From assembly GCF_001652265.1 (NCBI RefSeq), contig NZ_LWBS01000004.1:1-13346 (forward strand): DNA of 13,346 nucleotides, in the 5' to 3' direction. A program made the translations under genes and the position numbers. Under the pieces are notes generated by a model. It was not told the DNA's origin. It searched no databases and saw only the letters and a list, made by a program, of their open reading frames with translations. This DNA comes from Rhizobium leguminosarum (lineage in GTDB: Bacteria > Pseudomonadota > Alphaproteobacteria > Rhizobiales > Rhizobiaceae). Position 1 is the first letter of the stretch. Each line of letters starts with the position of its first letter. Of this stretch, positions 1 to 13,346 are shown piece after piece.

Positions 1-192
1 ATCTACAACGCTTCGTCTCCATCCATGATCCGATCCCAACCTATTTCAAATCCCGCGCCACGACATCTCCTCCGGCCACCATCGCGAACTGCGCACGGCG
101 CCGATGAGCCTGTGGGCGAAAATTGCCGAGCATGAGAGATATCTGCGGATGGCGTCTTTCGCTGGCCTTTCATCCGTTAAGTTTACGATGCC
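1..192 (+). pseudogene. IS6-family transposase, C-terminal fragment with a frameshift
   Basis: This is the last part of an IS6-family DDE transposase whose body lies left of the window. Frame 3 starts with LQRFVSIHDPI, the usual IS6 C-terminal motif. The homology then moves to frame 2 (NLFQIPRHDISSG, then RELRTAPMSLWAKIAEHE). The shift fits loss of one base near position 36, where the expected DPIAN becomes DPI plus an out-of-frame CCAAC. Frame 2 then stays open past the putative element end to a stop at 335-337, so the tail is unrelated read-through. The same motif family recurs at 6345-6526 and 12991-13346. It cannot be functional as seen. Family assignment is from recalled IS6 C-termini; the exact IS name is unknown. 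Confidence 0.75.
173..192. repeat. Putative terminal inverted repeat of the left IS6 element
   Basis: The reverse complement reads GGCATCGTAAACTTAACGGA. It matches the outer end of the IS6 fragment at 7884-7903 (GGCACCGTCAAGTAAACGGA) at 16 of 20 positions, begins with GG as IS6 ends do, and lies at the expected distance after the transposase C-terminus. The element would end at 192. From 193 to 303 I see no recognisable gene. Confidence 0.6.
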
Positions 193-303
193 GGATCTTG
201 ACCGCGACCGTCAGGCCGAGCTCCCCGAGTCAGTCCTCGGCTGCAATCGCCGCGTCCATTACGGGAATTTGCTCCATGCCGTCAAGATTGATGATCGAGC
301 GGC

Positions 304-1300
304 TTACGCCGATCGATTGGGTGCAAGTGAAAGATAGCGCTTTGGTGGAAGGATGTGCGCGCGCATTCCCGTTTGCCTACGATCCAAAACGCCTGCTCCT
401 ATCCAAAACTGGACGGCGCTTCGACGATTACTGCCGAGATGCAACCAGCCATCGAGACCCCTTCGAAGGGCGATAGGTATCGTTGTCGGAGCGAAAAGGA
501 TAGTGCCACGTTCAACGTTGTCAATTTCCAAATACGCCTGGTGCTGACACACCGATCTCGTCAGGACGCGCATTCGATCTTCCAAATCCATCGGGAGCGC
601 GCCAAAACAGTTGCGCTCGGCGGCCCCCAGGAAGCGTGCTTTTTCATCCGAGAACAGATTCGAGAACCACCTGCTTTCCAACGCCTTGCCAAGCTCTCGA
701 ATCCTCCGCGAGAGACCGTCAATGTCGTAGTCATCCCGTAGGAGGCTCTGCTTCAGCTTTAGATTCCGATGTTGCCCGGCAGCGACGACACTCAAGATAT
801 GGTCAAACCTGCTTCTGTATCGATTGAGCACGACTTCATCGGCACCCATGAATAAGGGGACAACGGCTTCATCCGATGAGAACTCGATGACCACCCCTGG
901 CGCGTGAATGCGGCAGATTGGCGAAACGAGCTCGCACATACCGGCAATGGCAAAAACCTCAGCCCAAGATGCCTCCGGATACTCTCGGGAGGCCGGGCTT
1001 TTATAGCCACCAAACGGGATGAACAGGCGCAATGGCACGTCTTCTCGAACCGCATGAGATACGACGCCTAAGACGCGTTGCGCTACAAGGCTATCAAGGG
1101 AAGAGCCACGAAAATTCTTGCTGAGAAGTCGTTGCGCAACCAGTTGCTCGACGGTCGATCCAGCGCGGAGGCCGCTGATACCACAGATTGATCAGCTGCC
1201 CATCGTCTGACCTGATCAACCATCGAAGGTGTTCATCGACGGCGCCTGTGTTCGTCGACGTATTCTGTTCGATTGCAGTCACTGCAGCCTTGATCCTCAC
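304..1300 (-). pseudogene. Unrecognised enzyme-like protein, frameshifted; faint resemblance to the isocyanide synthase (PvcA/DIT1) layout
   Basis: Two minus-strand reading frames appear to be one gene. The first starts with GTG at 1300, overlapping the exporter stop codon as GTGA. It reads VRIKAAVTAIEQNTSTNTGA and onward to about SDDGQLINLW, then becomes noise. The second frame opens after a stop at 1192-1194 and continues GLRAGSTVEQLVAQRLLSK, then PLRLFIPFGGYKSP, ending at 304. A frameshift between about 1150 and 1192 joins them into some 330 residues. If the second part stands alone, the only start is GTG at 1038, which discards a plausible coding stretch. The core (PF-x-x-KSP, a later SDE segment, then YRSRF) recalls the order of features in PvcA/DIT1 proteins, but this is weak and I do not assign that function. 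The C-terminal end (SNRRSAVQFWIGAGVL) looks enzyme-like. Gene order suggests a shared pathway with metK and the exporter. Confidence 0.5.
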
Positions 1301-2484
1301 TGTTTGCGTGCCGCGTCGGCACCTTGTGCCTCACCTGCTCCGGAGCCCCGCCAACGGCAGGAAACGATCGCGACAACGGAGAGCGATGCCAGGAGTGCAG
1401 CGAAAAGGAGGACGAAAGAAAGCGAGCGCGTTGCAATGGATCCTGCGACCGCAGTTGCAGCTGCCGAGCCGAGCCATGATCCGGCCTGCAGCCATCCGAA
1501 TGCCTTCCCCTGCTGAAAAGCGGGGGTAACCCGGGCGACTTCCGAAGTCAGAAGCGCTGTCGTCGGCGCCACTGCAAAACCACTCAGAACAAGAACGAGC
1601 GAAAATAAGCCCAGATTGCTGGTCGTGAAGGTCGCCATGATAGCGCATGCTGCAACTGGAACAGGCAGGAGCGCGAAGCGAAGGCGATCAGCGTTCTTAA
1701 GACGGCTGAAGCACAACCCGCCAACAAACGAGGTTGCCGCCCATGCGGACAATACCAACGCCGTTCCTGTTCCGTCATCGACCCTCGCAACAGTCGCGAC
1801 CTCGACGCAGGCAAGCATCCCGTAAGCTGTCGTTCCCGAAAAGATTAATGCGAGAGTTCGCCAGCCCATTCTTGCGTCGTCTTCGCGTTTCGAAAGTTCG
1901 CTATTCTCTTTCGATCCACGCTCAATCCCGCGACCCACATACCCAAAGGCGAGCGAAACCGCGCCTAGTAGGATTGCGCAGCCAACTGTCGGCCCCACTT
2001 TCCCGGCCAGGCTGGAAACAGCCACGATCAAGGGAGCGATGACAAATGCGGAACTGGCCAAAGCAGCCTCTGCATCGAAGGCGGCTCGGAGACGACTGCT
2101 ACCAAGGATGTGCGCCAAGAGCGCGCGTGCCTGTGCTGTGACGGGTGGAAGTGATGCACCAGCAACGGTAGACAAAACCACCGCAGCAAGTGCGCCGTCG
2201 ACGACACCGATCCCAGCATGGCTCGCAAAGCTCACCGAGCCCAACGCCAACAGCGTTCGCTGCAGACCGGCCCTGTTGGCAACCGAAATCCAAAGGGGTT
2301 GACTGAGAGCGCCAGCCAAAGTCCATCCGGTGAGCGCAAGCGATGCAATCGAAAGCGACAGCTTCTCGGTGAGCGTGAGAAGGATCGCCAACGGCCCCAT
2401 GCTCGTCGCGACGCGATAGAACAGCGTCACGCCAAGAATCGCAAGCGCATGTGTTGGCAATCTTTCCTTGATAGTTGAGTTCAT
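1297..2484 (-). CDS. MFS transporter, probable small-molecule exporter
   Basis: A 395-residue protein dominated by hydrophobic segments rich in Ala, Leu, Ser and Gly, with the length and 12-helix pattern of the major facilitator superfamily. The central hydrophilic loop (GIERGSKENSELSKREDD) falls where the two six-helix halves meet. The C-terminal half contains the helix-pair pattern GFAVAPTTALLTSEVARVTP, seen in drug- and metabolite-exporting MFS proteins. It would sit in the inner membrane and use the proton gradient. The ATG at 2484 follows a purine-rich site (GAGAGACG) and lies 16 nt after the metK stop codon; its own stop overlaps the GTG of the next gene. The tight packing implies one transcript metK-MFS-downstream gene. 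The reading frame is intact although both neighbours are broken. Substrate unknown; export of a SAM-derived product is only an inference from context. Confidence 0.85.
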   Translation of the reverse strand: MNSTIKERLPTHALAILGVTLFYRVATSMGPLAILLTLTEKLSLSIASLALTGWTLAGALSQPLWISVANRAGLQRTLLALGSVSFASHAGIGVVDGALAAVVLSTVAGASLPPVTAQARALLAHILGSSRLRAAFDAEAALASSAFVIAPLIVAVSSLAGKVGPTVGCAILLGAVSLAFGYVGRGIERGSKENSELSKREDDARMGWRTLALIFSGTTAYGMLACVEVATVARVDDGTGTALVLSAWAATSFVGGLCFSRLKNADRLRFALLPVPVAACAIMATFTTSNLGLFSLVLVLSGFAVAPTTALLTSEVARVTPAFQQGKAFGWLQAGSWLGSAAATAVAGSIATRSLSFVLLFAALLASLSVVAIVSCRWRGSGAGEAQGADAARKQ

Positions 2485-2500
2485 TCGTCTCTCAGAGATG

Positions 2501-3422
2501 TTAGGCTAACCCTGCCGCGGCACGCAAGGCGGAGACCTGATTTGTTCTCTCCCATGGTAGGTCGAGATCCGACCTTCCGAAATGCCCATATGCCGCAACG
2601 GGCCGGTACCTAATCTTCCGCAAACCAAGCTTTTCTATTATCGCGCCCGGGCGAAGATCGAAAACGTCGAGAATAGCCTGCCGGATGCGCTCGGGAGCCA
2701 CCTCGTGGGTCCCAAAGGTCTCGAATGAGACGGACAACGGCCCGCGCCATCGCCACGGCGTACGAGACTTGCAGTTCGAACCTTTTTGCAAGGCCGGCTG
2801 CGACGACGTTTTTGGCCACCCAACGTGCGGCGTAAGCGCCAGACCTGTCCACCTTTGTCGCGTCCTTACCACTGAACGCTCCGCCTCCATGCCGCGCAAA
2901 GCCGCCATAGGTGTCGACCTGAAGCTTGCGCCCCGTCAAGCCGGAATCGGCTGCGGGTCCGCCATGCACGAAGCGCCCCGTGGGATTTGAATAGAACTTG
3001 GTATACTCATCGAGAAGCTCATGAGGAACGACTGCGTCAACCACATGAATGCGTAGGTCACGTTCCAACTGGAGCGCATCAATCGATTCATCGTGGTGAG
3101 CTAACACCAGGATCGTATCGACGCGCAACGGCTGGCCATGGGCATACTCGACGGTCACCTGGTTTTTGCCGTCCGGTCGCAAATACGGCAGGGTTCCATT
3201 CTTGCGCACTTCTGCCAATCGCCGCGTCAACCCGTGTGCCAACGTAATAGGCAGCGGCATTAGTTCCGGCGTTTCGTCTGAGGCAAATCCCGTCATGATA
3301 CCTTGATCGCCGGCGCCGATCGGCTCGATATCCGGTGAGCCGCTGCTTTCAAAGTCGACTGCATGATCAATTTTGCCGAGGTAGTCGGGAGATTGGTGGA
3401 CCAGAGATGTCAGGACAAAGCA
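2501..3422 (-). pseudogene. metK: S-adenosylmethionine synthetase (methionine adenosyltransferase), 5'-truncated and frameshifted
   Basis: MetK makes S-adenosylmethionine from ATP and methionine. Both signature motifs are present: GAGDQGIM (around 3294-3317) and the glycine-rich phosphate-binding motif [16 protein letters not shown]. The C-terminal end is complete (AAYGHFGRSDLDLPWERT, then AAAGLA). The sequence is closer to the Bacillus-type MetK I recall ([21 protein letters not shown]) than to the usual alphaproteobacterial chromosomal one, suggesting an accessory copy. Two defects are seen. Homology begins only at about [12 protein letters not shown] near 3420, so roughly 110 N-terminal residues are missing. 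One extra base near 2741-2748 breaks the frame after SYAVAMAR: the expected continuation [11 protein letters not shown] is in another frame. The gene is therefore dead unless the shift is a sequencing error, and even then it lacks its start. It leads the operon with the MFS exporter. Confidence 0.88.
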
Positions 3423-3759
3423 TTTCCGCGGTGTCGTCTTCGGTCGTGTTGTCCGCTACGAGATTGCCAGCCTGGGGGCGCTCAATTTCGTCTTGTCAGA
3501 TGCGCTTGCGGGCGGTGTCGTCTCGTCACTTGCCGTTGATGTACACGGGAAGTCGCTTGGATCGGCAATTCTGTCGCTGGAGATCCCCGAGCCGTCGCGG
3601 ACAGCGGCGAAGATCGGTGACCTTAGCGACGTGCGCTTGCACAATTCGGGACATCTGTTTCAGATTTGCGGCGAGCAGGGGGGCAAAGGCGAGGAGCAAC
3701 CAATGTTGCCTCCGGCTATCTCCGAGCGTTATTTGATCGCGCTTGCCGATCTGGCGTAG
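3412..3759 (+). pseudogene. AtuA-related small protein, C-terminal fragment
   Basis: The plus-strand frame reads [20 protein letters not shown], then ALNFVLSDALAGG, then a VDVHGKSLGSAILSLEIP segment. This matches the end of the roughly 110-residue AtuA-related protein (ferredoxin-like domain of the acyclic terpene utilisation AtuA family), whose hallmark is RYE-(L/I)-PNLGALNFVL followed by HGK-(S/T)-L and a final LEIP. In catabolic operons this protein accompanies AtuA-type proteins and acyl-CoA enzymes. Here the N-terminal half is missing, replaced by the broken end of metK on the opposite strand, and no partner genes remain. After LEIP (about 3590) the frame stays open for some 55 more codons to TAG at 3757-3759. 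That tail is not part of the family as I know it, and the true stop has probably been lost at a second junction. Confidence 0.6.
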
Positions 3760-3832
3760 ACCGCATCGCGGGTCATGCTTACGTCTGACAAGCTTAGATG
3801 CGTCACCGTGTCATGGGCAACCATGCTTATCG

Positions 3833-3880
3833 CAGTCGAACGGCATGTCGGAAGCTCTCGTCAAGACGATCAAACGCCAC
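3833..3880 (+). pseudogene. IS3-family transposase OrfB scrap
   Basis: About 16 codons read QSNGMSEALVKTIKRH, matching the conserved stretch around the last catalytic glutamate of IS3-family OrfB (typical form SNGMAEAFVKTFKRDY). Nothing recognisable of the element remains on either side, so this is a residual footprint between the AtuA-like fragment and the cyclase gene. The interval 3760-3925 holds no other gene that I can support. Confidence 0.6.
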
Positions 3881-3925
3881 TGCATCCACATCGCACGGCT
3901 GAACTTCCGTCTTTTATCAATTCAA

Positions 3926-4696
3926 TCAATCGAAAATCGCCACCGCGCGGCACCAGCCCGCGGAGGCTCGCTCGATCTTCACCGGGAAACAGGCAATGCG
4001 AAAGCCCGTCGCAGGCAGAGCCTCGAGATTGTGCAGCTTTTCGATATGGCAGTAACCGGTGTGGCGCCCTGCCTTGTGTCCTTCCCAGATCAGCGCGGCA
4101 TCTCCGGTTGCGGCAAACTTCTTTGCTGTATGGAGAAATGGCGCGTCCCAGGACCAGCCGTCGGTGCCGGTCACCCTGACCCCGTGGTCCAGCAGAAACA
4201 TGGTTGCCTCGTATCCCATGCCGCAGCCGCTGGCGACGTAATCAGGTTGTCCGAACTTCATACCGGCTGCGGTGTTCACCACCACGATTTCCATCGGACT
4301 GAGCGTATGGTTGATGCGCGCCAGTTCGGCTTCAACCTCTTGCGCGCTGACGACATGCCCATCGGGAAGGTGGCGGAAGTCCAGTTTGACACCGGGCTGA
4401 AAACACCAGTCCAGCGGGATTTCATCTATCCGCATCGAGGGTTTACCGTGATCCTGGGTGGGGTGAAAGTGCCACGGTGCGTCGAGATGAGTGCCATTAT
4501 GTGTGGACAAATCGACGCGTTCGACCGCCCACCCCTCGCCATCGGGCAGTTGATCGGCAGTCAGGCCGGGAAAAAAGGCCAGTATTCCGTTAAGGCTTTG
4601 CTGGTGGTCAGTATATTGAATTTTGGGTTCATTGCCTGGCGGATCGGCAGCTACGCCGTTGGCGATTGGCACCGACAGATCTACAATCCGGGTCAT
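3926..4696 (-). CDS. Cyclase-family metal-dependent hydrolase (kynurenine formamidase-like fold)
   Basis: A 256-residue, apparently complete member of the cyclase family (PF04199), whose best known member, kynurenine formamidase, hydrolyses N-formylkynurenine. The metal-binding signature is clear: H66-x-GTH70-x-D72-x-P74-x-H76 (HNGTHLDAPWH). Later family features include TGTDGWSWDAPF and a HTGYCHIEKLHNLEAL segment where a further His and Glu normally complete the metal site. There is no signal peptide, so it should be cytoplasmic. The ATG at 4696 is well supported by GGGAGAG eight bases or so upstream. Its 5' side runs straight into an IS630 remnant within about 50 nt, so the native promoter has probably been replaced. 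No tryptophan-degradation partners (kynA, kynU) are present, and many cyclase proteins act on other substrates, so the specific reaction is left open. Confidence 0.85.
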   Translation of the reverse strand: MTRIVDLSVPIANGVAADPPGNEPKIQYTDHQQSLNGILAFFPGLTADQLPDGEGWAVERVDLSTHNGTHLDAPWHFHPTQDHGKPSMRIDEIPLDWCFQPGVKLDFRHLPDGHVVSAQEVEAELARINHTLSPMEIVVVNTAAGMKFGQPDYVASGCGMGYEATMFLLDHGVRVTGTDGWSWDAPFLHTAKKFAATGDAALIWEGHKAGRHTGYCHIEKLHNLEALPATGFRIACFPVKIERASAGWCRAVAIFD

Positions 4697-4747
4697 GTGA
4701 CTCTCCCTCAGTTAAATATTGCGCGTGGAAATGGTGGTGCGCAAGAC

Positions 4748-4964
4748 GCCGCGCCGCCCGCTGAGTATCGTCCAACCGTGACTTGGGCCTAGGAGCCTTA
4801 CCGTTGATCGGCCCGTCAGGGCCATACGCATTGAACCGCAAGACCCAATCCCGCACGATCTGAAACGTGACATTGCCCAGCCGCGCCGCATCCTTGGTCT
4901 GGCGCGCCCGACGCCGCAAACGCTCTGCGTCGAAATCCTCTCGTGACGAAATCGCTGAACCCAT
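4748..4964 (-). pseudogene. IS630-family transposase, N-terminal stub with internal deletion
   Basis: The ATG at 4964 opens MGSAISSREDFDAERLRRRA, the usual start of a rhizobial IS630 transposase. The helix-turn-helix segment (DAARLGNVTFQIVRDWVLRF, then NAYGPDGPINGKAP) follows, and homology ends near LDDTQRAA at about 4750. The catalytic DDE domain is gone. In relatives I remember, about 18-20 residues lie between RQTKDAA and the next DAARLG. Here the two are merged into RQTKDAARLGN, as if recombination between two short GATGCGGCGC-like repeats removed the piece between them. The stub points the same way as the cyclase gene and ends about 50 nt before its start codon, so transcription arriving from this side could drive that gene. 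It has no transposase activity. Confidence 0.75.
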
Positions 4965-5223
4965 CCCACACCTCCGATTTGCACCAGAGATTCAGATTCA
5001 TCGCGTTTTGGGAAGTCCGTGAGTCGAATTCAGCAAGATGCCGTATTAGAGCACGTCCGACACGCATGGTTCCTTACGTGTAACCAACGTATTAAAAACT
5101 GCCTTCTTACAACGAGATGGCCAATTCTCTAACTAAGGTCTCAGGATTTGTGGGGGTTCATCCCGGCGATCCGACACAGCTGAGGAGAGCTGCATTTCGA
5201 TAGTCAACTGAATTGGAGAACCT
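4965..5223. other. Intergenic region between the IS630 stub and the SnoaL-like gene
   Basis: No convincing coding sequence on either strand. The right part (about 5085-5140) is relatively AT-rich and is the likely place for the promoter of the SnoaL-like gene. TATTAA at about 5090-5096 could serve as a -10 box, but no good -35 is evident, so no promoter is claimed. The left part is presumably the IS630 end, but I could not identify its terminal repeat. Confidence 0.4.
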
Positions 5224-5682
5224 ATGTCTTTGAAGAACTTCATGCGCGCTGGCGTATTTGCGGCTGTCGCCATCATAAGCCTTGCAGGCGCTGCACATGC
5301 GGGTCCTGCAAAAAACAGGGAACTGGTCATCAGGGCTGTTGTCGGCCTCTTCATCGATCACGATCCGGCGGTCGTCGACAAATACTGGAGCCAGAAATAT
5401 ATCCAACACAATCCCATGTTTCCCAACGGCAGGGACGTCATCAAGGGATTTGTATCCAACACTCCGCCGGGCTTCAAATATGAAATGGGTGCCGTTGTCG
5501 CCGACGGCAACATTGTCATGGTGCGCGGTCGGTACACAGGTTTTGGTCCCAAACCGATGATCGCGGTCGATATGTTCCGCGTTGAAAAAGGCAAGATCAT
5601 CGAACACTGGGACGTGCTTCAGGAGGAGGTTCCAGCCAGCCAAACCAAAAGCGGCAACCCGATGTTCGTTCCGGGGATGTAA
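5224..5682 (+). CDS. Exported SnoaL-like / NTF2-fold protein
   Basis: A 152-residue protein with a clear Sec signal peptide: positive start (MSLKNFMRAG), hydrophobic core (VFAAVAIISLAG) and an AHA site with likely cleavage after residue 26. The mature part matches the SnoaL-like, NTF2-fold family (COG4922 type): KYWSQKYIQHNPMFPNGRD, later VDMFRVEKGKIIEHWDVLQ, then a short conserved tail. These small cone-shaped proteins bind or act on hydrophobic ligands; the enzyme name aldol-condensing SnoaL-like is generic and does not prove an activity. The periplasmic location is set by the signal peptide. Start ATG at 5224 is preceded by GGAG at a good distance. It stands alone, with a terminator directly after it, and is transcribed away from the cyclase gene. 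Confidence 0.82.
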   Translation: MSLKNFMRAGVFAAVAIISLAGAAHAGPAKNRELVIRAVVGLFIDHDPAVVDKYWSQKYIQHNPMFPNGRDVIKGFVSNTPPGFKYEMGAVVADGNIVMVRGRYTGFGPKPMIAVDMFRVEKGKIIEHWDVLQEEVPASQTKSGNPMFVPGM

Positions 5683-5686
5683 AATG

Positions 5687-5726
5687 AACGAGGGTCCGGT
5701 GGAATCTACCTGACCTTCTCGTTTTT
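5687..5726 (+). terminator. Probable rho-independent terminator of the SnoaL-like gene
   Basis: An inverted repeat AACGAGGGTC (5687-5696) pairs with GACCTTCTCGTT (5712-5723), leaving a two-base bulge and a 15-base loop. The right arm runs into five T residues. It starts four bases after the TAA stop. Confidence 0.65.
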
Positions 5727-5805
5727 GTCGTCAGGAGCGATGGTGTCGGCTTTTTGCGTTGATCAGCCACCCATGCTCTTTCGGGTTGCGACTTATCCCG
5801 TTCGC

Positions 5806-6300
5806 TCCGGGAGATATGCTCCGATGATCGAGAAGCGGCTGCGCCAGTTTCGGCGCCCGCATTGTGGTTCGGTCAGGATCGACGAGACCTACGTCAAGAT
5901 CCGCGGCAAGTGGCGTTACCTGTACCGTGCCATCGACAAGCACGGAAACCCAATCGACTTCCTTCTGACTGCAAAGCGCGGTCTCGATGGCGCCAAGCGC
6001 TTCTTCCGCAAGATGCTGAAGGACGAGCCTTTGTTGTCACCGGCAAAGATCGGCACGGACGGCGCCAACACCTTTCCGTCGGCGATCAAGACGTCAGTCG
6101 ACGATGGGCACCTGCATCCGGATCCGGTTCATTATGTCACCAAACATCTCCAACAAGGCATTGAGAGTGACCATTTCCGCGTGAAGAAGAACATGCCGGA
6201 GATCGGCGGATTCCAATCCTTCAAAACCGCGCGTCGAACTGTCGCAGGGTTCGAAGCGATGCTGTGGCTGCGAAAAGGGTTTGGTTTCTCCGGAGAGTGG
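5806..6300 (+). pseudogene. IS6-family transposase, catalytic domain only
   Basis: From about GRYAPMIEKRLRQF the frame follows an IS6-family transposase of the subgroup with long basic linkers. VRIDETYVKIRGKWRYLYRA holds the first catalytic Asp, IGTDGANTFPSAI the second, and IESDHFRVKK the catalytic Glu region, followed by GFEAMLWLRKGFGFSGEW. The N-terminal DNA-binding third is absent: the preceding residues (5725-5805) do not belong to the family. After about 6300 the frame runs on to a stop near 6570, but its translation is no longer IS6-like. The remnant is therefore truncated at both ends and abuts a second, different IS6 fragment. Inactive. Confidence 0.8.
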
Positions 6301-6344
6301 ACCGTCAATGATCAGAACGTATTTCAGCTCAACGCGTTCGGCCG

Positions 6345-6526
6345 ACCGCTTTGCGACACGCCCGGTTCAAGTCGGCAGGGCATGCCCGCGCTTCATCTCC
6401 ATGCATGGCCCGATCGCAAACCTGTTCCATCTTCAACGCAAGAAGACGACCACTGCCGAATATCGAAAACTGCAAAACGCCGCCATGAGCACGTGGCGGG
6501 AAATCACCCTGTCGACTGCGGCATAA
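6345..6526 (+). pseudogene. Second IS6-family transposase fragment (C-terminus), with one-base deletion
   Basis: The segment ends with RFISMHGPIANLFHLQRKKT and YRKLQNAAMSTWREI before a TAA at 6524-6526, the same C-terminal motif seen at 1-192. Just upstream, another frame reads ARFKSAGHA, the usual sequence before QRF in this subgroup. A missing base in the codon for Gln (GCCCGCGCTTC instead of GCC-CAG-CGC-TTC, about 6388-6392) explains the switch. It comes from a different IS6 subgroup than the fragment at 5806-6300, so this stretch is a mosaic of two elements. The outer repeat of this element is not seen; an IS5 element begins 23 bases after the stop. Confidence 0.65.
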
Positions 6527-6549
6527 CCCAGGCCCATCGTGGCCAATCC

Positions 6550-6560
6550 GGCGTTGGTGC
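6550..6560. repeat. Left terminal inverted repeat of the IS5 element
   Basis: GGCGTTGGTGC, matching the inverted copy at 7594-7604 with one mismatch. Inward bases (GCGGATA against ATGAATA) also partly agree. Confidence 0.6.
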
Positions 6561-6604
6561 GCGGATATGAAATCGAGGGCATTTCGATCTTTTGATGTAG
6601 TTGG

Positions 6605-7528
6605 TTATGCCTGCGTGACTTGACGCCGGATAGACTCCGGGCGTCCACATGCCGGCATGCGGTTGAGAACGATGCAACCGATGGCAACGTCGGTCTGTTG
6701 AGCCGGAAAGGAGCGGGCCCGCAGGCGCAATCCGATCAGCCCCTTGTATCGTCCGATGGCGGTTTCGATCAGCGCACGCTTGCCGTAGCCGGCGGCTGGC
6801 CCTGTATCACCATTGCTTTCCACCGCCGTCGAACGCGGTGGAATGACGACGTTCGCGGTTGCGCTGTGCTGCAGGACCGTCTGATAGGTTGGCTTCCCAT
6901 CATAGGCTCCGTCGGCTGTGAACTGGTCAATCTCGCCGTCGATCTGGCTGAGCAACGGCTCCACCTGGGAAGGATCATCCGTGCCCTGATCGGTCAGCCT
7001 ATGGGCAATGATCTCGCCACTATTGGCATCCACTGCCAGATGGAATTTGCGCCAGTTGCGGCGTGATCTGGCGCCATGTTTCTCCTCAAGCCATTGCCCG
7101 GCACCGTACACCTTTAACCCCGTGCTGTCGACCAGCACATGCAGCGGGCCGTCCGGCAGAGGCGGGTTTCGTTGGGCCGGCAGCTTCCACGTTTGTGCCC
7201 GACGGCTCAGCGTCGTATGATCGGGGACGGGTATCTCAAGTCCCATAAGATCGAACACCGAATTCATGAGCCCTTCGGTCTGGCGCAGCCGCATTCCGAA
7301 CACACAGCCCAGGGTCAGGGCCGTTTCGATGGCAAGATCGGAATAGCGGGGTTGACCACCTCGCGTTTTTCGCCGTGGTGCATGCCATCCGGCCAATGCT
7401 TCCGGCGTCATCCACAGTGTAAGACTGCCACGCCGACGCAGGCCTGCCTCGTACTCCGGCCAATTCGTCACCCTGAAGTTCATCTTTGCGATGTGATGAC
7501 GACGATCGGCGTTGTGTTTGTACGGCAT
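6605..7528 (-). CDS. IS5-family transposase
   Basis: A 307-residue DDE transposase with the typical start MPYKHNADRRHHI and the family block RYSDLAIETALTLG. The catalytic residues appear as D134 (VLVDSTGLKVYG), D206 (FTADGAYDGK) and E255 (GYGKRALIETAIGRYK). It cuts and joins DNA at the ends of the surrounding element. Between IPPRSTAVESNG and the GYGKRALIET motif, the relatives I recall have roughly 25 more residues, so this copy may carry an in-frame internal deletion just before the catalytic Glu, which could weaken or abolish activity. Start ATG at 7528 is the one conserved in the family. Family assignment is firm; activity is uncertain. Confidence 0.88.
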   Translation of the reverse strand: MPYKHNADRRHHIAKMNFRVTNWPEYEAGLRRRGSLTLWMTPEALAGWHAPRRKTRGGQPRYSDLAIETALTLGCVFGMRLRQTEGLMNSVFDLMGLEIPVPDHTTLSRRAQTWKLPAQRNPPLPDGPLHVLVDSTGLKVYGAGQWLEEKHGARSRRNWRKFHLAVDANSGEIIAHRLTDQGTDDPSQVEPLLSQIDGEIDQFTADGAYDGKPTYQTVLQHSATANVVIPPRSTAVESNGDTGPAAGYGKRALIETAIGRYKGLIGLRLRARSFPAQQTDVAIGCIVLNRMPACGRPESIRRQVTQA

Positions 7529-8077: not shown

Positions 8078-9157
8078 ATGGCGGGCGTCGAGGAAGAGCT
8101 AACCGATGATTTGGCGCGTCCGGCGGGTGGGCAGGGCGCGATCACTAGTTTCCACTTCACCACGACCGGCATTGCGTCCCCCTTCGATGCATGGCGTTCC
8201 CTCCTGGATATCCTGTTCGACAGCTTTCCTCCCAAAAAGCCTCCCTCGAGTATCTTTCAAGCGAATCTCATAGTTCATCACTTCGGCACCTTCCTGCTAT
8301 GCCGGAGCGGCGCGGTAGGCGGCCGGTATCGGCGCACCAAAACGCGCCTCGCTTGGAACGATCTCGATCACATCGTTATCTCATGCCTCCTGCGTGGTGG
8401 CATCGCAGTGGCCGGTGCCGCCACGCGGCGATTGCGGCCGGGCGACGTTGCGGTGCTCGATCTATCCGCACCGATGGCTTTTGCAATGACGGCCGCCGAG
8501 GGCATGCACCTTATCGTGCCGCGCACGTTGCTGCCAGCCTCGATGGCGCCGGTGCATCCGGTTACCGGTCGCATCCTGGCCCAGGATACCGCCATGGCAA
8601 TCTTTGTCCGAGGGGTAATCGGGGCCCTCGCCGAAGCGGCGCTGCGCCTGAGCCCGGGCGAGATGATGGCTCTCGGAGCATCGGTGCCCGAGCTGCTCGC
8701 CTCCTGCCTGGGACCGGCCGCTGCGGCGACTTCAACGGAGGCCAAGGGCGATCTCGGACGACGCCTGCGTCGCCACATCGAGGAGAACCTGCATCGCAGC
8801 GACCTGACCCCTTCTCGCCTGACGCATGACCTTCATGTCTCGCGCAGTCAGCTCTACCGGCAATTCGCGACGAGCGGCGGTGTTGAAGCCTATATCCGCC
8901 GGCGCCGTCTCCGACGCTGCCTGCTCACCCTCTGCGATTCCCGTTATGCCGACCGGCGGATCGGCGATATCGCCTATGAGATGGGTTTCGCCGACGAGGC
9001 CCATTTCAGCCGGCTATTCCGACGCGCCTTCGGACTGTCCCCCCGGGGCGCCCGCTCCGCCGCCCGACAAGATGACCCCGGTCTGGGTGGCCTGTTCCGT
9101 CCACCCGCCGACGGTGCTTCCTTTGGGGACTGGCTTGCCATGCTCGGGACCAGTTGA
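8078..9157 (+). CDS. AraC-family transcriptional regulator
   Basis: A 359-residue protein with the two-part plan of AraC regulators that carry an AraC_binding_2-type N-terminal sensing region. Residues to about 220 form the non-conserved sensing domain (ARRLRPGDVAVLDLSAPMAF-like pattern; seen here as TRRLRPGDVAVLDLSAPMAF). The C-terminal DNA-binding domain has a first helix-turn-helix at about 242-262 (DLTPSRLTHDLHVSRSQLYR) and a second at about 295-322 (IGDIAYEMGFADEAHFSRLF, then RRAFGLSP), both very typical. It should bind DNA direct repeats, and such a repeat lies 20 bases after its stop codon, in front of the RhiA-like genes on the same strand. That makes it their probable activator. The ATG at 8078 has no strong ribosome site, so the true start could be slightly internal (a TTG at codon 12). 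The ligand is unknown. Confidence 0.88.
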   Translation: MAGVEEELTDDLARPAGGQGAITSFHFTTTGIASPFDAWRSLLDILFDSFPPKKPPSSIFQANLIVHHFGTFLLCRSGAVGGRYRRTKTRLAWNDLDHIVISCLLRGGIAVAGAATRRLRPGDVAVLDLSAPMAFAMTAAEGMHLIVPRTLLPASMAPVHPVTGRILAQDTAMAIFVRGVIGALAEAALRLSPGEMMALGASVPELLASCLGPAAAATSTEAKGDLGRRLRRHIEENLHRSDLTPSRLTHDLHVSRSQLYRQFATSGGVEAYIRRRRLRRCLLTLCDSRYADRRIGDIAYEMGFADEAHFSRLFRRAFGLSPRGARSAARQDDPGLGGLFRPPADGASFGDWLAMLGTS

Positions 9158-9176
9158 GGTTGCGCATGCGTTTCTT

Positions 9177-9213
9177 GGAACGGTCGTCCAAGTTTTAGGA
9201 ACGCTCATCCAGG
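9177..9213 (+). promoter_or_regulatory. Direct repeat with 21-bp period: probable AraC-type operator
   Basis: GGAACGGTCGTCCAAG (9177-9192) is repeated as GGAACGCTCATCCAGG (9198-9213), with 13 of 16 positions identical and an exact start-to-start distance of 21 bp, two helical turns. AraC-family proteins characteristically bind such same-face direct repeats near the -35 region. It lies between the AraC gene stop (9155-9157) and the first RhiA-like gene (ATG 9295). The downstream stretch includes TACAAA (9244-9249) as a possible -10, but the promoter is not well defined. Confidence 0.65.
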
Positions 9214-9294
9214 GACAACTGCAAGGGGCAACGATATCGTCAATACAAATAAAGAGAGAAAAGCGCACTACAGCTCAGCCCACCGAAAGGAAAC

Positions 9295-9987
9295 ATGCTG
9301 ATGTCGACGACGAAGGCAAAGACAAGTTCCGGTCCTGCGACAAGCAGCACGCCATCGGCCGCCGCGGTTCCTTTCGAGCTGACCGCCACCAATGGGTCGA
9401 GCGTGCCGGGATTTCAGTATTTCAGCGTCTTTCCGCCTGCATTGAAAAACCCTCCGCCAAAATCGCAGGTCCTCACCGCCTTGGTGTCGGATGCGACAGA
9501 TCAGGCAGGCACAACGACTTTGACGTGGAACGGTGGAAGCGGCGCGCTGGCCCTGTTTGCGCTCCTTGAAGGCACAAGCCCCAACAATGCCCACAGGACT
9601 CCGGTCGCGCTGGGGGATACGGTTGCGGTGGCTTTGGTCGATGGTGCGTTTACTCTTACCGCCACCGCTGGCGGCCCTGCCAACGCGATCGAGGTGACAT
9701 TCGCTCCCGGTGTCCCACCGGGCGGTCAGATCGGCTTGGTTGTCGGTCCCGCGCCGATCCTTGTTGCGATCCCTGCCGGCCTGTCGTCGTTGACCCTCGA
9801 GCCCGACCTGTCACCGACCGTCACGGTGGTCTTCGGCACCGCCTTCCAGTTTCCCGAAGCCAATGAATCGGACGTCAGCCAGTCAGCGACCACCACTTTC
9901 AAACAGGATGCCACGACCGAGGCCAGCCCCACGGCCATCGCACATATCGAAGTCGATCTGGACAATAAGATCACCCAAGTCGGCTGA
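9295..9987 (+). CDS. Hypothetical beta-rich protein, probable diverged RhiA-like paralogue
   Basis: A 230-residue protein with a Ser/Thr/Ala-rich N-terminal tail (about 25 residues) and then alternating hydrophobic stretches typical of a beta-sandwich. No signal peptide and no Cys. I do not recognise it directly, but its layout follows the next two genes: an FQYFSVFPP segment where they have FAVFQ, a TTTLTWNGG segment where they have FTW or FSW, then GQIGLVVGPAPILVAIPAG and TVTVVFGTAFQ where they have SVGIGMAGSGTFAVQAAPN and YWVMFGNF. This suggests a distant paralogue lacking the conserved N-terminal LTC-(L/I)-NNS motif. The ATG at 9295 follows AAAGGAAA closely; a second ATG lies two codons on. 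It is the first gene after the proposed operator. Paralogy is an inference from eye alignment. Confidence 0.7.
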   Translation: MLMSTTKAKTSSGPATSSTPSAAAVPFELTATNGSSVPGFQYFSVFPPALKNPPPKSQVLTALVSDATDQAGTTTLTWNGGSGALALFALLEGTSPNNAHRTPVALGDTVAVALVDGAFTLTATAGGPANAIEVTFAPGVPPGGQIGLVVGPAPILVAIPAGLSSLTLEPDLSPTVTVVFGTAFQFPEANESDVSQSATTTFKQDATTEASPTAIAHIEVDLDNKITQVG

Positions 9988-10002
9988 TCGCTCAACGAGC
10001 TT

Positions 10003-10110
10003 GCCCGGCATCCGCCTTCCCAGGCCGGGCATTTCCCCCGCCGCTCTAATTCCTCCCACCGGGCGGCGAGGGCGGGCCGGCACCGCTTCAGCCCCGGAGG
10101 CGGTGCCGGC
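10003..10110 (+). other. Two GC-rich hairpins between the first and second RhiA-like genes
   Basis: Within the 164-base gap, GCCCGGC (10003-10009) pairs with GCCGGGC (10024-10030). Further on, GCCGGCACCGC (10076-10086) pairs perfectly over 11 bp with GCGGTGCCGGC (10100-10110). Neither has a proper T-run, so they look more like mRNA-stabilising or processing structures than terminators. Confidence 0.55.
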
Positions 10111-10151
10111 TACCACCCTGCAATTCCGGGCTCCAACAAAAGGCAAAGCAA

Positions 10152-10760
10152 ATGACGAATTACTCTCTGACATGCCTCAATAACTCACAGCTGCACGGCA
10201 GCTTCGCCGTGTTCCAGAAGGCTCCGCCTATGACGGTCCCCGGGAACGTGTTTTCACTGGCCTGGTTTACCCGCCCGGCCGCTCCGGGTAGCAGTGTGAA
10301 ATTCACCTGGAGCCTCGACTATAGCTTCGTATGGTCGGAAACAGGACTGCTTCAGCCTGGCATCAACTTCTCAGCGACCCAGGTGATCTCTGCTGATCCG
10401 AACGGCCAGAACCTGGTTCAGCTCACGCAGGACAACTGGGGTGCGACGACCTTTGCCAATCCCACCGTCAGCGGCGCCCTGGGCTCGCTGACTATCCAGC
10501 AGCTGTCCAACGTCGTGCCAAGCCGGACCTCTGTCGGCATAGGCATGGCCGGCTCGGGCACCTTCGCCGTCCAGGCTGCTCCGAACATGACGGCAGTCTT
10601 CACCCCGCATCCCAACTACTGGGTGATGTTCGGCAATTTCGAGACAGGTGACGTCATCGACATCGAGGACGTGACCGGAGCCGTCGAGGTTACCTACGGC
10701 GGAGCACTGACCTCGCGGACCGCGGCACTCGGTCTGGATAACCTAATCACGGTTTCCTGA
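10152..10760 (+). CDS. RhiA-like protein (rhizosphere-expressed protein family)
   Basis: A 202-residue protein with no signal peptide or membrane segment. The start MTNYSLTCLNNSQLHGSFAV, then SLAWFTRPAAPGSSVKFTW, then YSFVWSETG and TPHPNYWVMFGNFETGDVID, follows RhiA of Rhizobium leguminosarum as I remember it. RhiA is a roughly 24-kDa protein made abundantly in the rhizosphere from the rhiABC operon under the LuxR-type regulator RhiR; its biochemical role is not known. Here the regulator is AraC-type and the gene is one of three paralogues. The single Cys (residue 8) is shared with the next gene. The ATG at 10152 has GGCAAAG upstream, a modest ribosome site. Product naming rests on recalled similarity, not on a search. 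Confidence 0.72.
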   Translation: MTNYSLTCLNNSQLHGSFAVFQKAPPMTVPGNVFSLAWFTRPAAPGSSVKFTWSLDYSFVWSETGLLQPGINFSATQVISADPNGQNLVQLTQDNWGATTFANPTVSGALGSLTIQQLSNVVPSRTSVGIGMAGSGTFAVQAAPNMTAVFTPHPNYWVMFGNFETGDVIDIEDVTGAVEVTYGGALTSRTAALGLDNLITVS

Positions 10761-10768
10761 CGCCCTTC

Positions 10769-10793
10769 GACGGCGGCTGCTCCAGCCGCCGTC
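10769..10793 (+). other. Strong GC hairpin between the second and third RhiA-like genes
   Basis: GACGGCGGCT (10769-10778) and AGCCGCCGTC (10784-10793) form a perfect 10-bp stem with a 5-base loop, eight bases after the stop codon at 10758-10760. It is followed by CCCTTCTCCCC rather than a clean T-run and lies about 20 bases before the AGGAGA ribosome site of the next gene. It may protect the upstream message end or partly terminate. Confidence 0.6.
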
Positions 10794-10823
10794 CCCTTCT
10801 CCCCAACACCACAGGAGACGGCA

Positions 10824-11465
10824 ATGCCGGAGTACAGACTCACCTGCATCAACAACTCAAATCTGCATGGCAGTTTCGCGCTTTACCAGGTGCCGCCCCA
10901 GACGCCTGCGCCGTCGCGGCTAACCAGCCTGGCATGGCTTGCGCGGCCGGCGGCGCCCGGCACCCAGGTGCGCTTCTCCTGGTCCACGGAAGTCGGTTTC
11001 ATCTGGGGTGAACGCGGCACCTTTGGGGGCCGAACGGCCTTTACCTCCTACCAGTATATCGCCGCAGACCCCGATCGCGAAAACGTCATCGACTTCACCT
11101 CGGACTCGTTCGGAGCGCCGACGTTCCAGAATCTGCGCACCGGCGGTGCTCAAGGGACGATGAGCATCCGCCAGCTCAGCGGGTCGTTCGATTTCCCGAT
11201 CCACCTCGGCATCGCAGTCGGCAAATCGCCCATCTACACCGTTGATTTCAATGCGAATGTCCTGAGCGCATTCACTCCGCATCGTCATCGCTGCTGGGTT
11301 GTCTTCGGCAGTTACTCCGCCGGTGAGACGATCGACGTGGAAGCGCTCACCAACATCCAGATCGTTGATTTCAGTCAGACCTCGCCCTCGCAGCGCGTCA
11401 TGCTGACACCGGAGAACATTCTGCAGCAGGCAGCAGCGCCGAACGCCGATCCGCCTTTCGGCTGA
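10824..11465 (+). CDS. RhiA-like protein, paralogue of the preceding gene
   Basis: A 213-residue protein clearly paralogous to its neighbour: MPEYRLTCINNSNLHGSFAL against MTNYSLTCLNNSQLHGSFAV, SLAWLARPAAPGTQVRFSW against SLAWFTRPAAPGSSVKFTW, and FTPHRHRCWVVFGSYSAGET against TPHPNYWVMFGNFETGDV. The resemblance runs the full length, with a short extra C-terminal tail (QQAAAPNADPPFG). No export signal. The ATG at 10824 is preceded by AGGAGACGGCA, a good ribosome site, better than those of the other paralogues. An extra Cys within the TPHRHRCW segment is not shared. The repeated gene suggests the proteins may assemble together or have divided roles. Confidence 0.75.
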   Translation: MPEYRLTCINNSNLHGSFALYQVPPQTPAPSRLTSLAWLARPAAPGTQVRFSWSTEVGFIWGERGTFGGRTAFTSYQYIAADPDRENVIDFTSDSFGAPTFQNLRTGGAQGTMSIRQLSGSFDFPIHLGIAVGKSPIYTVDFNANVLSAFTPHRHRCWVVFGSYSAGETIDVEALTNIQIVDFSQTSPSQRVMLTPENILQQAAAPNADPPFG

Positions 11466-11549
11466 ACCCCGGAAGCGAGCCGGGCCCGTTTAACCCACCC
11501 AAAAGAATAGGCGGACGGCGCGACTTCGCCCACCGTCATACCAGGTCCG

Positions 11550-11587
11550 GCGGCATGCGCCTCCGGTCAGCGCTCCCGGCATGCCGC
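11550..11587 (+). other. Hairpin before the secreted-protein gene
   Basis: GCGGCATGC (11550-11558) pairs with GCATGCCGC (11579-11587) over 9 bp, with a 20-base loop. It lies in the 163-base gap between the third RhiA-like gene and the ATG at 11629. It includes the ATG at 11581, which is why that upstream start is considered less likely. Confidence 0.45.
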
Positions 11588-11628
11588 GGGGAACGTTCGC
11601 CCCTCCCTATCGTGAAGAGGAAGACGTC

Positions 11629-12174
11629 ATGCTCATTAGCAAACTACGGTCCCGCATCCTGGCGGTGACATTTACCGTCCTGGTTTCGCTCGGCGCGATA
11701 AGCCCCGCCCACGCTTATTCCGTCTATCGCCGGGTAACGGCCGATGCCATGACGGGGATTGTCGTATGGACGGCGGCAAACTTCGGCGTCAGCGGTAACC
11801 CGCCCACCCTGTCGTTCTTCTACTATCCGGACGATGGTGCGGCGCGCGCCGCAATGCAGCAGGCTCAATGCTTCGTCAAGGTCGATCTCGGTGACCTCAT
11901 CAATCCGCAAGAGGGTGCCCAGGCGGCTGTCGGCAACGCGGACATTCCGGTCAACGCCGCCCCAGCCGATCAGCCGAGGCCTTTTCCCTGGATGATCGGG
12001 TTCGACAACAATCCGCCCGGCCATTGGAGCATCGCAAGACCTCAAATTACAAACGCAGTCACCAATGCCGCGGCTAGCAGGGTGGCCGCCGCCGGCTTCC
12101 GGAGCCTCGCAACCACAGACAACTCCGGCGTTACCGTCATCAACGGAACACTGCTTAATTGCCGCGCCCAATAG
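11629..12174 (+). CDS. Small secreted protein of unknown function
   Basis: A 181-residue protein when started at the ATG at 11629, which has GAGGAAG upstream and gives a textbook Sec signal peptide: MLISKLRSRI, a hydrophobic core (LAVTFTVLVSLGAIS) and PAHA with cleavage after residue 29. The alternative ATG at 11581 would bury the signal peptide behind 16 charged residues. The mature protein has two Cys (about 81 and 178) that could form a disulfide in the periplasm or outside the cell, and aromatic-rich strands (LSFFYYPDD, PWMIGFDNNPPGHW). I do not recognise a family. The R. leguminosarum rhi operon also contains further genes (rhiB, rhiC), so comparison with RhiC is the obvious test, but I do not claim identity. 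Confidence 0.75.
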   Translation: MLISKLRSRILAVTFTVLVSLGAISPAHAYSVYRRVTADAMTGIVVWTAANFGVSGNPPTLSFFYYPDDGAARAAMQQAQCFVKVDLGDLINPQEGAQAAVGNADIPVNAAPADQPRPFPWMIGFDNNPPGHWSIARPQITNAVTNAAASRVAAAGFRSLATTDNSGVTVINGTLLNCRAQ

Positions 12175-12223
12175 ACGGTTCTTCGACAAGGTCTTAGAGT
12201 CAACGGACGCAATAGCTTTCACC

Positions 12224-12251
12224 GCCGGGCCTTCATGTCCGGCGGCTTTTC
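12224..12251 (+). terminator. Terminator-like hairpin (attenuator?) between the last two module genes
   Basis: CCGCCGG (12224-12230) pairs with CCGGCGG (12241-12247), with a 10-base loop, followed by CTTTT. It lies only 16 bases before the ATG at 12267, overlapping the leader of that gene, so it could reduce rather than end transcription. The preceding 12175-12223 holds nothing else. Confidence 0.5.
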
Positions 12252-12266
12252 ACGGGAGAATTCGAC

Positions 12267-12914
12267 ATGGCAGTGCTTCATCACGCCTTTCGCTGTGCTG
12301 TCACGCCAGCCTTGGAACGAGAGATTGCGAACCTGTTGGCGGCATGGGAGACCGGTGACCGCGAAAGGCTTTCAGACATGGCGCTTGCCCGGTATACGGC
12401 GCTGGCGGAGCGCAAAGACATTCATGCCGCCTTTTATCTCGGCCCCGACGGCGCCGCGCCGTCCTGGCTGCAGCCGCAATTCATCAGCCCCGGGCTCGCC
12501 GCTTTGGTGGTGCTCGCCAAGGGCTTCGTTCCCCTGCCGACTTTGAGCGCCAGCAGCGATACGAACCACTACCAGCTAGCGACCCAACTTCCGGCGCTCG
12601 GCTGGGCGACCGACGAGATCGACTGTCTGATCCGCGGGCAGCCGATCGAGGCAATGCTGCAGGGCTCCGCCGGCTGTGCCTTTCGGCTCGAGCAAGGAGG
12701 GTTCCGGCACACCGGCGGCTGGACCCCTGGGCGGATGGCGCGAACGCTGTGCACGCGCCTCGACAGGCTTGCCTTCGGCCCGCCTTCGCAAGCCAACGAA
12801 GCGGCGCTGGTAGCGTGGAGCAAACTCAACGAAAGCAATGCCTTGCAAGATGCGCGCGCGATGCTTACCCCGCTCACCGACGACGACTGGCTGGTGATGG
12901 CCCTCACTCACTGA
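12267..12914 (+). CDS. Conserved-looking hypothetical cytoplasmic protein
   Basis: A 215-residue protein with no signal peptide and no membrane segment. The N-terminal third looks helical (PALEREIANLLAAWETGDRE, then LARYTALAERKDIHAAFYLG). A central part contains Cys in DEIDCLIRGQPIE and SAGCAFRLEQGGF, and the C-terminal part is helical (EAALVAWSKLNESNALQDAR, DDDWLVMALTH). ATG at 12267 follows GGGAG. It is the last gene of the module, immediately before the IS6 boundary, and reads in the same direction as the RhiA-like genes. I do not recognise the family. Its position after the secreted protein and separation by a terminator-like hairpin suggest lower expression. A role as a cytoplasmic partner or immunity-type protein is possible but unsupported. 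Confidence 0.7.
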   Translation: MAVLHHAFRCAVTPALEREIANLLAAWETGDRERLSDMALARYTALAERKDIHAAFYLGPDGAAPSWLQPQFISPGLAALVVLAKGFVPLPTLSASSDTNHYQLATQLPALGWATDEIDCLIRGQPIEAMLQGSAGCAFRLEQGGFRHTGGWTPGRMARTLCTRLDRLAFGPPSQANEAALVAWSKLNESNALQDARAMLTPLTDDDWLVMALTH

Positions 12915-12990: not shown

Positions 12991-13346
12991 TCAGGCGACA
13001 CAGGCCGCAATTTTCCATGCATCGACAGCTTCGAGCCGATGGTAGCGAATTGTTTGCGCGGCGCGGCGACGGGACGGAACTGAAAAGCAATTGCGGGTCG
13101 CTGAGTGCATGGAGACGAACCGTTGCAACGTGCCTGGTGACCGGTGGCCTTGCATGGTTCGTTCCCGTTTTCGAAACGGCAGATGGCTGTTCTCGGCCCG
13201 ATTATTGAGACCCTTGTGCGACCAATGGTCAAGGCCGGGTGCCACTTCCGCCTTTGCTGCACCGTAGGAGCGGAGCTTATCGGTGATGATCCGTTTGGGA
13301 GCAAAGCCATAGCGCTTCATTAACGCCACCAGCACGCGCTTCGCTG
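12991..13346 (-). CDS. IS6-family transposase, C-terminal part (continues beyond the window)
   Basis: The minus-strand frame is open to the window edge and reads ALMKRYGFAPKRIITDKLRS, with the second catalytic Asp in ITDKLRSYGAAK. NNRAENSHLPFRKRER follows, with the catalytic Glu, then LQRFVSMHSATRNCFSVPSR and a normal C-terminal end (EAVDAWKIAACVA). This is the classic IS6 or IS26 subgroup pattern and no frameshift is visible, so the copy may be intact outside the window. It transcribes toward the RhiA-like module. The N-terminal half lies beyond 13346. Confidence 0.85.
   Translation of the reverse strand, partial: AKRVLVALMKRYGFAPKRIITDKLRSYGAAKAEVAPGLDHWSHKGLNNRAENSHLPFRKRERTMQGHRSPGTLQRFVSMHSATRNCFSVPSRRRAAQTIRYHRLEAVDAWKIAACVA

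Follow-up and report, generated by a model that had tools for sequence, protein, structure and literature searches.

RhiA, an abundant protein expressed in the rhizosphere, has been recognised for decades, and to our knowledge no function has been assigned to it in that time. What a locus with several RhiA-like genes might do is the question raised by a 13,346-nt stretch of Rhizobium leguminosarum DNA (GCF_001652265.1, contig NZ_LWBS01000004.1, contig 4 of an 8.2-Mb assembly), hereafter the window, which is a rhizobium plasmid stretch. In the window, an AraC-family gene is followed by a direct repeat and five co-oriented genes, g1 to g5, with intergenic gaps of 63 to ~165 bp (Table 1). The initial annotation described a regulated module of three RhiA-like paralogues and an exported protein, and proposed a root-environment response system or a self-assembling protein system. 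Our analysis supports this interpretation in part, with good support for the homology, the gene order and the operator. What is new here is that the slot after the RhiA genes varies from locus to locus, which tentatively suggests that it is the place of an exported effector.

The relationship among the first three proteins was examined by BLAST and by profile comparison. Results showed that g2 (RhiA1) and g3 (RhiA2) share 39% identity over 200 amino acids (E = 1e-51), and both are full-length members of the RhiA family, with 41% identity over 200 amino acids (g2) and 24% over 185 amino acids (g3, E = 3e-10) to RhiA of strain 3841. At least 120 of the 197 homologues of g2 carry the label PF27136. 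For g1, BLAST gave no credible match to g2, g3 or RhiA, and it was missing from the hits of the RhiA profile search, but a profile of 37 g1 sequences aligned nearly end to end with a profile of 64 RhiA sequences (hhalign score 47.4, E = 3e-6), compared with a maximum of 26.4 among 60 column shuffles and 14.4 for the reversed profile. One of the 37 g1 homologues also bears the PF27136 label of the RhiA homologues. The view that g1 is unrelated to RhiA was rejected on this clear signal, and sequence comparison identifies g1 as a third, very distant family member, visible by profile-profile comparison only; the three paralogues announced by the initial annotation are thus related. In a midpoint-rooted tree of 56 RhiA sequences (loci are numbered L; the tree omits L021, all g1 sequences and RhiA matches not exceeding 60 bits, namely L043-L046, L063, L064 and the second copies in L053 and L079), 12 second copies fell on one side of a single branch with support of 100/100. 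Because these grouped copies include those of L015 (an unclassified proteobacterium) and L016 (Rhodospirillaceae), the tree indicates that RhiA was duplicated before the two-copy module spread among rhizobia.

The predicted model of g2 was all-beta (predicted local distance difference test score, pLDDT, 90.7). No known fold was found for RhiA1 among PDB or viral models, an absent match not being equal to a new fold, and sequence searches of solved structures returned nothing credible for the RhiA, g1 and g5 profiles. No signal peptide was seen on g1-g3. Both credible RhiA matches of this genome lie inside the window, and a classical rhiA was not found elsewhere in it. The anti-phage defence models of PADLOC gave no credible match for 10 proteins including g1-g5 (best E = 0.028), and g1-g5 had no PHROG phage-family match.

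Conservation of the module was assessed in 24 loci with a close RhiA1, comprising the window, 15 homologue loci, the plasmid loci L021, L022, L023, L047, L048, L049 and L055, and L040. The plasmid loci represent seven of 10 plasmid records that have a close RhiA1. The count of 24 excludes L038 and L039, which lie on the contigs already represented by L006 and L008; L021 is almost a copy of the window, and the sequences of L012 and L016 stop soon after RhiA. Profile scans detected g1 in 17 of the 24 loci (two as fragments), a second RhiA in 13 and g4 in 15, with g4-like proteins in L014 and L040. The module genes share one strand in all close loci, non-module genes are common to at most five, and RhiA1 is 72-94% identical to that of the window across the 15 homologue loci. 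The gene order is therefore conserved in other genomes. RhiA matches are patchy at every rank searched: nine of 394 genomes of the family (three weak), two of 385 of the class (one weak), six of 398 of the phylum, and six of 198 and five of 197 in two further families, where the counts include the centre genome and are limited to what the first look of the search returned. In the window the module lies between insertion sequences (IS), namely an IS6 transposase gene (5725-6570) and an IS5 element (6605-7528) on one side and an IS6 piece (12991-13344) on the other. We propose that the module is laterally mobile.

The protein encoded upstream of g1 carries a C-terminal helix-turn-helix domain (Pfam HTH_18, 4.9e-14, residues 250-326) and belongs to the AraC/XylS family. 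FeaR (PRK09685) was its nearest NCBIfam model (3e-33), with a score of 115.5 bits against a curated cut-off of 199. The repeat copies are GGAACGGTCGTCCA at 9177 and GGAACGCTCATCCA at 9198, spaced by 21 bp. Of the 24 close loci, all but L016 and L019 have an AraC-family gene upstream, and in each of these 22 a pair of 14-mers at 21-bp spacing was found within the first 170 bp past that gene. When compared with 1000 letter shuffles, none was as good in 19 of these 22 loci, the other three having values of 0.001 (L011), 0.005 (L015) and 0.022 (L014). A spacing of 21 bp was the single best between 16 and 28 in 21 of the 22 loci and tied in L014, for a pattern that was derived from the window itself and loci that are related and not independent. 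Since the repeat is conserved, we infer that the AraC-family protein binds it and turns on g1-g5. The module of the initial annotation is real.

The gene or genes after the last RhiA vary among the close loci, and the g4 family, a C70 protease, an EndoU nuclease or other secreted proteins were observed there. The papain-like protease (Peptidase_C70, AvrRpt2, PF12385; 4.2e-7 in L006 and 2.1e-6 in L018, the two scanned) is present in five of the 24 loci (L005, L006, L007, L018 and L048), where it sits before g4 and never without it, and its Q, C, H and D motif residues are kept in all five. The slot of L015 holds a secreted EndoU nuclease (EndoU_bacteria, PF14436, 4.6e-17), and that of L010 a secreted protein of 147 amino acids without a recognised family. 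The window has neither a stand-alone EndoU_bacteria nor a Peptidase_C70 gene. In total, recognised toxin-type enzymes follow RhiA in six of the 24 close loci. A secreted protein was found in 19 of the 22 loci with enough downstream sequence (none in L011, L013 and L019), a count in which a simple signal-peptide rule, run with no false-positive control, found 15 and reading of the N-termini added L006, L007, L014 and L017. A protein of 110-111 amino acids and unknown family was also seen after RhiA2 in L011 (10416-10748), L013 (10432-10767) and L014 (10411-10746).

In the window the slot is occupied by g4, which, as first described, is an exported protein with two Cys: according to the family alignment and the signal-peptide rule, it starts with a signal peptide, and two Cys of the mature protein are conserved. 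An in-frame alternative start exists at 11581, and relatives start at the signal peptide, which favours 11629. The predicted model had a pLDDT of 87.2 and was low in residues 1-26 only. No credible Pfam match was found for g4. When g4 was compared with ADP-ribosyltransferase folds (Tpt1 and a guanine-specific ADP-ribosyltransferase), Z was far below the level of fold assignment. The active-site pattern of these enzymes is Arg/His, Ser/Tyr and Glu; at candidate places picked by eye, g4 relatives have Arg in seven of nine, His in two, Ser in all nine and Glu in five (Q in the window), so that the pattern is not matched, the candidate catalytic Glu not being conserved. It may be that g4 has an ADP-ribosyltransferase-like fold in a degenerate or unusual form. 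The secreted proteins of L014 and L040 are related to g4 across 108 alignment columns (hhalign score 43.2, the highest of 100 shuffles being 20.3), with 27% identity to g4 of L022 in tblastn (E = 2e-5). Within the order, the g4 family matched two of 397 genomes, its own and one weak match. In L018 and L048, g4 is duplicated in tandem within one module.

The last gene, g5, has 56 homologues, no signal peptide and no match in Pfam, NCBIfam, PADLOC or PHROG. A relationship of g5 to RhiA was rejected (profile scores 9.5, A1-A3, and 13.9, A2-A3). It occurs in 11 of the 24 close loci (one partial, L048), always downstream of g4. Its absence from four of the 15 g4-bearing loci, and its partial state in a fifth, argue against a toxin-immunity pair. 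Together, g1, g4 and g5 add three uncharacterised protein families.

RNA hairpins were observed between the genes. Past the RhiA1 stop codon, a hairpin starts 6-12 nt after the stop in all 13 RhiA2-bearing loci (8 nt in seven), in a scan that reports the best hairpin at any strength and at junctions that mostly measure just ~60 nt. The stem letters differ between locus groups; a stem pair table covered 10 of the 13 loci (without L015, L016 and L021), and as its stems were pre-picked as hairpins, their pairing is no test. Upstream of RhiA1, the best hairpin of the 24 loci ranged from -26.7 to -38.4 kcal/mol and ended 17-88 nt before the start. In a control of 21 loci with 40 dinucleotide shuffles each, the native hairpin was stronger than every shuffle in 10 of 12 loci for RhiA1>RhiA2, eight of 15 for g1>RhiA1, four of nine for RhiA>g4, two of 10 for g4>g5, one of four for C70>g4, none of five for RhiA>C70 and none of two for g4>g4. 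Hairpins at the g4>g5 junction occur in other loci too, and the RhiA2>g4 junction of the window was unremarkable (z -0.5 in the hairpin control, 0.21 in the region scan). Because the terminator scan does not list the intergenic hairpins, message stabilisation or processing seems likelier than termination. Numbers of intrinsic terminators and sigma-70 promoters in the scans were no higher than in shuffles.

Two known loci were compared with the module. The plasmid NZ_CP018231 of R. leguminosarum Vaf-108 (L021) carries the same six genes with 98-100% identical proteins and a downstream flank that differs from that of the window. The rhiABC-rhiR locus of Rhizobium johnstonii (leguminosarum) 3841 (NC_008381, L020) resembles the module in that a small secreted protein with Cys (RhiC) is encoded downstream of a leaderless RhiA in the same orientation, and in being plasmid-borne with adjoining IS elements. 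It differs in having one RhiA instead of three, RhiB (a phage tail-collar protein, Pfam 1.6e-14) between RhiA and RhiC, whereas g1-g5 include no tail-collar match, and a LuxR-type regulator with an acyl-homoserine lactone (AHL) synthase nearby, whereas the regulator of the window is AraC-type. The module is therefore not a rhiABC locus, in agreement with the initial annotation, which had noted the AraC rather than LuxR regulator. A relationship between g4 and RhiC was rejected, no credible similarity being found (E = 2.6). Sequence searches for solved relatives with L010, L015, g4 and RhiC as queries returned nothing credible.

Among six rhiABC-type loci, the signal-peptide rule found a secreted protein in L020, L041, L050 and L056; RhiC was seen by eye in L054, and L051 has no secreted protein. 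Two RhiA-like genes followed by a small secreted protein occur in Pantoea sp. At-9b. In two genomes with weak RhiA-like matches (37-45 bits), the next gene encodes DUF4347 (5.2e-10) or Stv (1.4e-12). In L075-L078 (four of six genomes of one family), RhiA is followed by a protein called at 106-157 amino acids with an HG...DAC pattern (HR in L078), possibly a clan-CD protease; three of these proteins were scanned, without a credible Pfam match. A Mor-like gene precedes RhiA in L075-L077 (L075 scanned, with Pfam 0.00062, below the cut-off, and PHROG late activator 1e-7; L076 and L077 by eye). The pair adjoins what we take to be a mug-like gene, and in L075-L077 presumably an rpoD-like gene too; this vicinity seems to have received insertions repeatedly in one family. 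L061 has a different small protein after RhiA, and L079 a second RhiA-like gene. In a second further family (L062 and L080-L084) no such enzyme was recognised after RhiA, the one neighbour scanned, that of L080, giving nothing credible. Upstream of RhiA in L062, and in the same orientation, is a gene (10122-11387, minus strand) whose secreted product has trypsin-like motifs as judged by eye. At most of the distant RhiA loci the signal-peptide rule found no secreted protein.

We read the module, with somewhat less than even confidence, as a mobile operon controlled by the FeaR-like AraC protein through the 21-bp repeat, with one to three leaderless beta-sandwich RhiA proteins and an exported partner, the slot after RhiA being an effector (cargo) position. 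The regulator would bind the repeat and turn on the five genes, and the hairpins would stabilise the messages to give RhiA proteins in excess; that these are probably made in large amounts is suggested by the hairpins and by the known abundance of RhiA. g4 would be exported through its signal peptide and fill the slot in the window, RhiA proteins may act as carrier, adaptor or membrane-active partner of the effector, and g5 would be an accessory protein. A leaderless RhiA could aid an exported protein if it left the cell by another route or acted inside the producer, for example as chaperone or protection. Since the slot varies while RhiA1 is so strongly kept, we regard RhiA1 as the probable general partner, with the slot protein as the probable specific effector. 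The EndoU, DUF4347 and Stv genes each occur in one copy per genome (3.6, 4.8 and 6.4 Mb), at the RhiA locus, so that chance encounters with abundant families do not account for them, but any unique neighbour would pass the single-copy test. The argument for the effector position rests on the recurrence of the enzyme class, which was judged after the fact. A genome-wide C70 search recovered none of four genomes' known copies and is uninformative on C70 uniqueness. A broader form, that RhiA proteins are the core of widespread unrecognised effector cassettes with an exchangeable secreted or protease/nuclease effector, with rhiABC as an example and g4 as a new, divergent family of ADP-ribosyltransferase-like effectors, we regard as possible and rather doubtful.

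The operon might instead make abundant structural or adhesive proteins for root life (inclusion, surface or matrix), with g4 as surface accessory and the neighbouring enzymes coincidental or matrix-modifying. We consider this somewhat unlikely: the abundance of RhiA in the rhizosphere, the all-beta model, hairpins that fit high and unequal expression and the 18 of 24 close loci without a recognised toxin-type enzyme speak for it, but g1-g3 lack a visible signal peptide, no known adhesin, lectin or inclusion protein family was matched in Pfam and structure searches (PixA/AidA inclusion-body proteins were absent from a general Pfam scan of g1-g5, in which no member was compared), and the changing slot proteins are left unexplained. 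That the operon answers a chemical signal, the FeaR-like regulator sensing an aromatic amine or root compound and inducing binding or scavenging proteins, is improbable; FeaR is the best NCBIfam match and the repeat is conserved along with the AraC gene, but the FeaR score is below the cut-off, the module has no catabolic or transport gene, and other RhiA loci have LuxR-type (L020, L054) or Mor-like (L075-L077) regulators. Actinoporins and thaumatin-like proteins recur in the weak Foldseek rows of RhiA1, and RhiA proteins that are themselves pore-forming or membrane-binding, with the enzymes as optional cargo, are a very unlikely further explanation. Returning to the effector position, the variable slot and its toxin-type enzymes in some relatives, which the initial annotation had not foreseen, point to an effector or antagonism module at least as much as to a root-environment response. 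The self-assembling system that it also suggested found no direct support here.

Table 1 Features of the RhiA module in the window
Feature	Position	Strand	Evidence
AraC-family regulator (FeaR-like)	8078..9157	+	Pfam HTH_18 4.9e-14; nearest NCBIfam model FeaR (3e-33, under its cut-off)
Direct repeat, two 14-mers 21 bp apart, probable operator	9177..9211	+	Kept in 22/22 AraC-bearing loci
g1, distant RhiA-family protein	9301..9987 (alternative start 9295)	+	hhalign to RhiA profile
Strong RNA hairpin upstream of g2	10070..10118	+	Region z -3.87
g2, RhiA homologue 1 (RhiA1), core gene	10152..10760	+	41% to RhiA of 3841; PF27136
RNA hairpin 8 nt past g2 stop codon	10769..10793	+	Region z -4.98
g3, RhiA homologue 2 (RhiA2)	10824..11465	+	39% to g2
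g4, secreted, two Cys	11629..12174 (signal peptide ~11629-11715)	+	Family alignment, signal-peptide rule, model
RNA hairpin between g4 and g5	12222..12245	+	Region z -1.46, weak by itself
g5, orphan family without signal peptide	12267..12914	+	56 homologues

Outside the module, the IS-rich part of the window holds a metK (methionine adenosyltransferase) fragment (2610-3296, minus strand, 1.2e-80, below the cut-off), and near the IS elements are a putative cyclase gene (PF04199, 7.2e-35; 3926-4696, minus strand) and one for a secreted-looking SnoaL-like protein (5224-5682, plus strand). In L023 (R. ruizarguesonis, 1-5200 and 10044-11857), the record annotation shows the RhiA module flanked by genes for LodA/GoxA oxidase, tyrosinase and multicopper oxidase on one side and by a DarT-macro domain pair on the other.

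The module adds intergenic hairpins at nearly fixed places to what is known of RhiA loci. Mobile RhiA operons that differ in their regulators, together with the conserved repeat and a slot filled in some genomes by identifiable enzymes, give a concrete lead on the function of RhiA, namely that it may accompany exported effectors.

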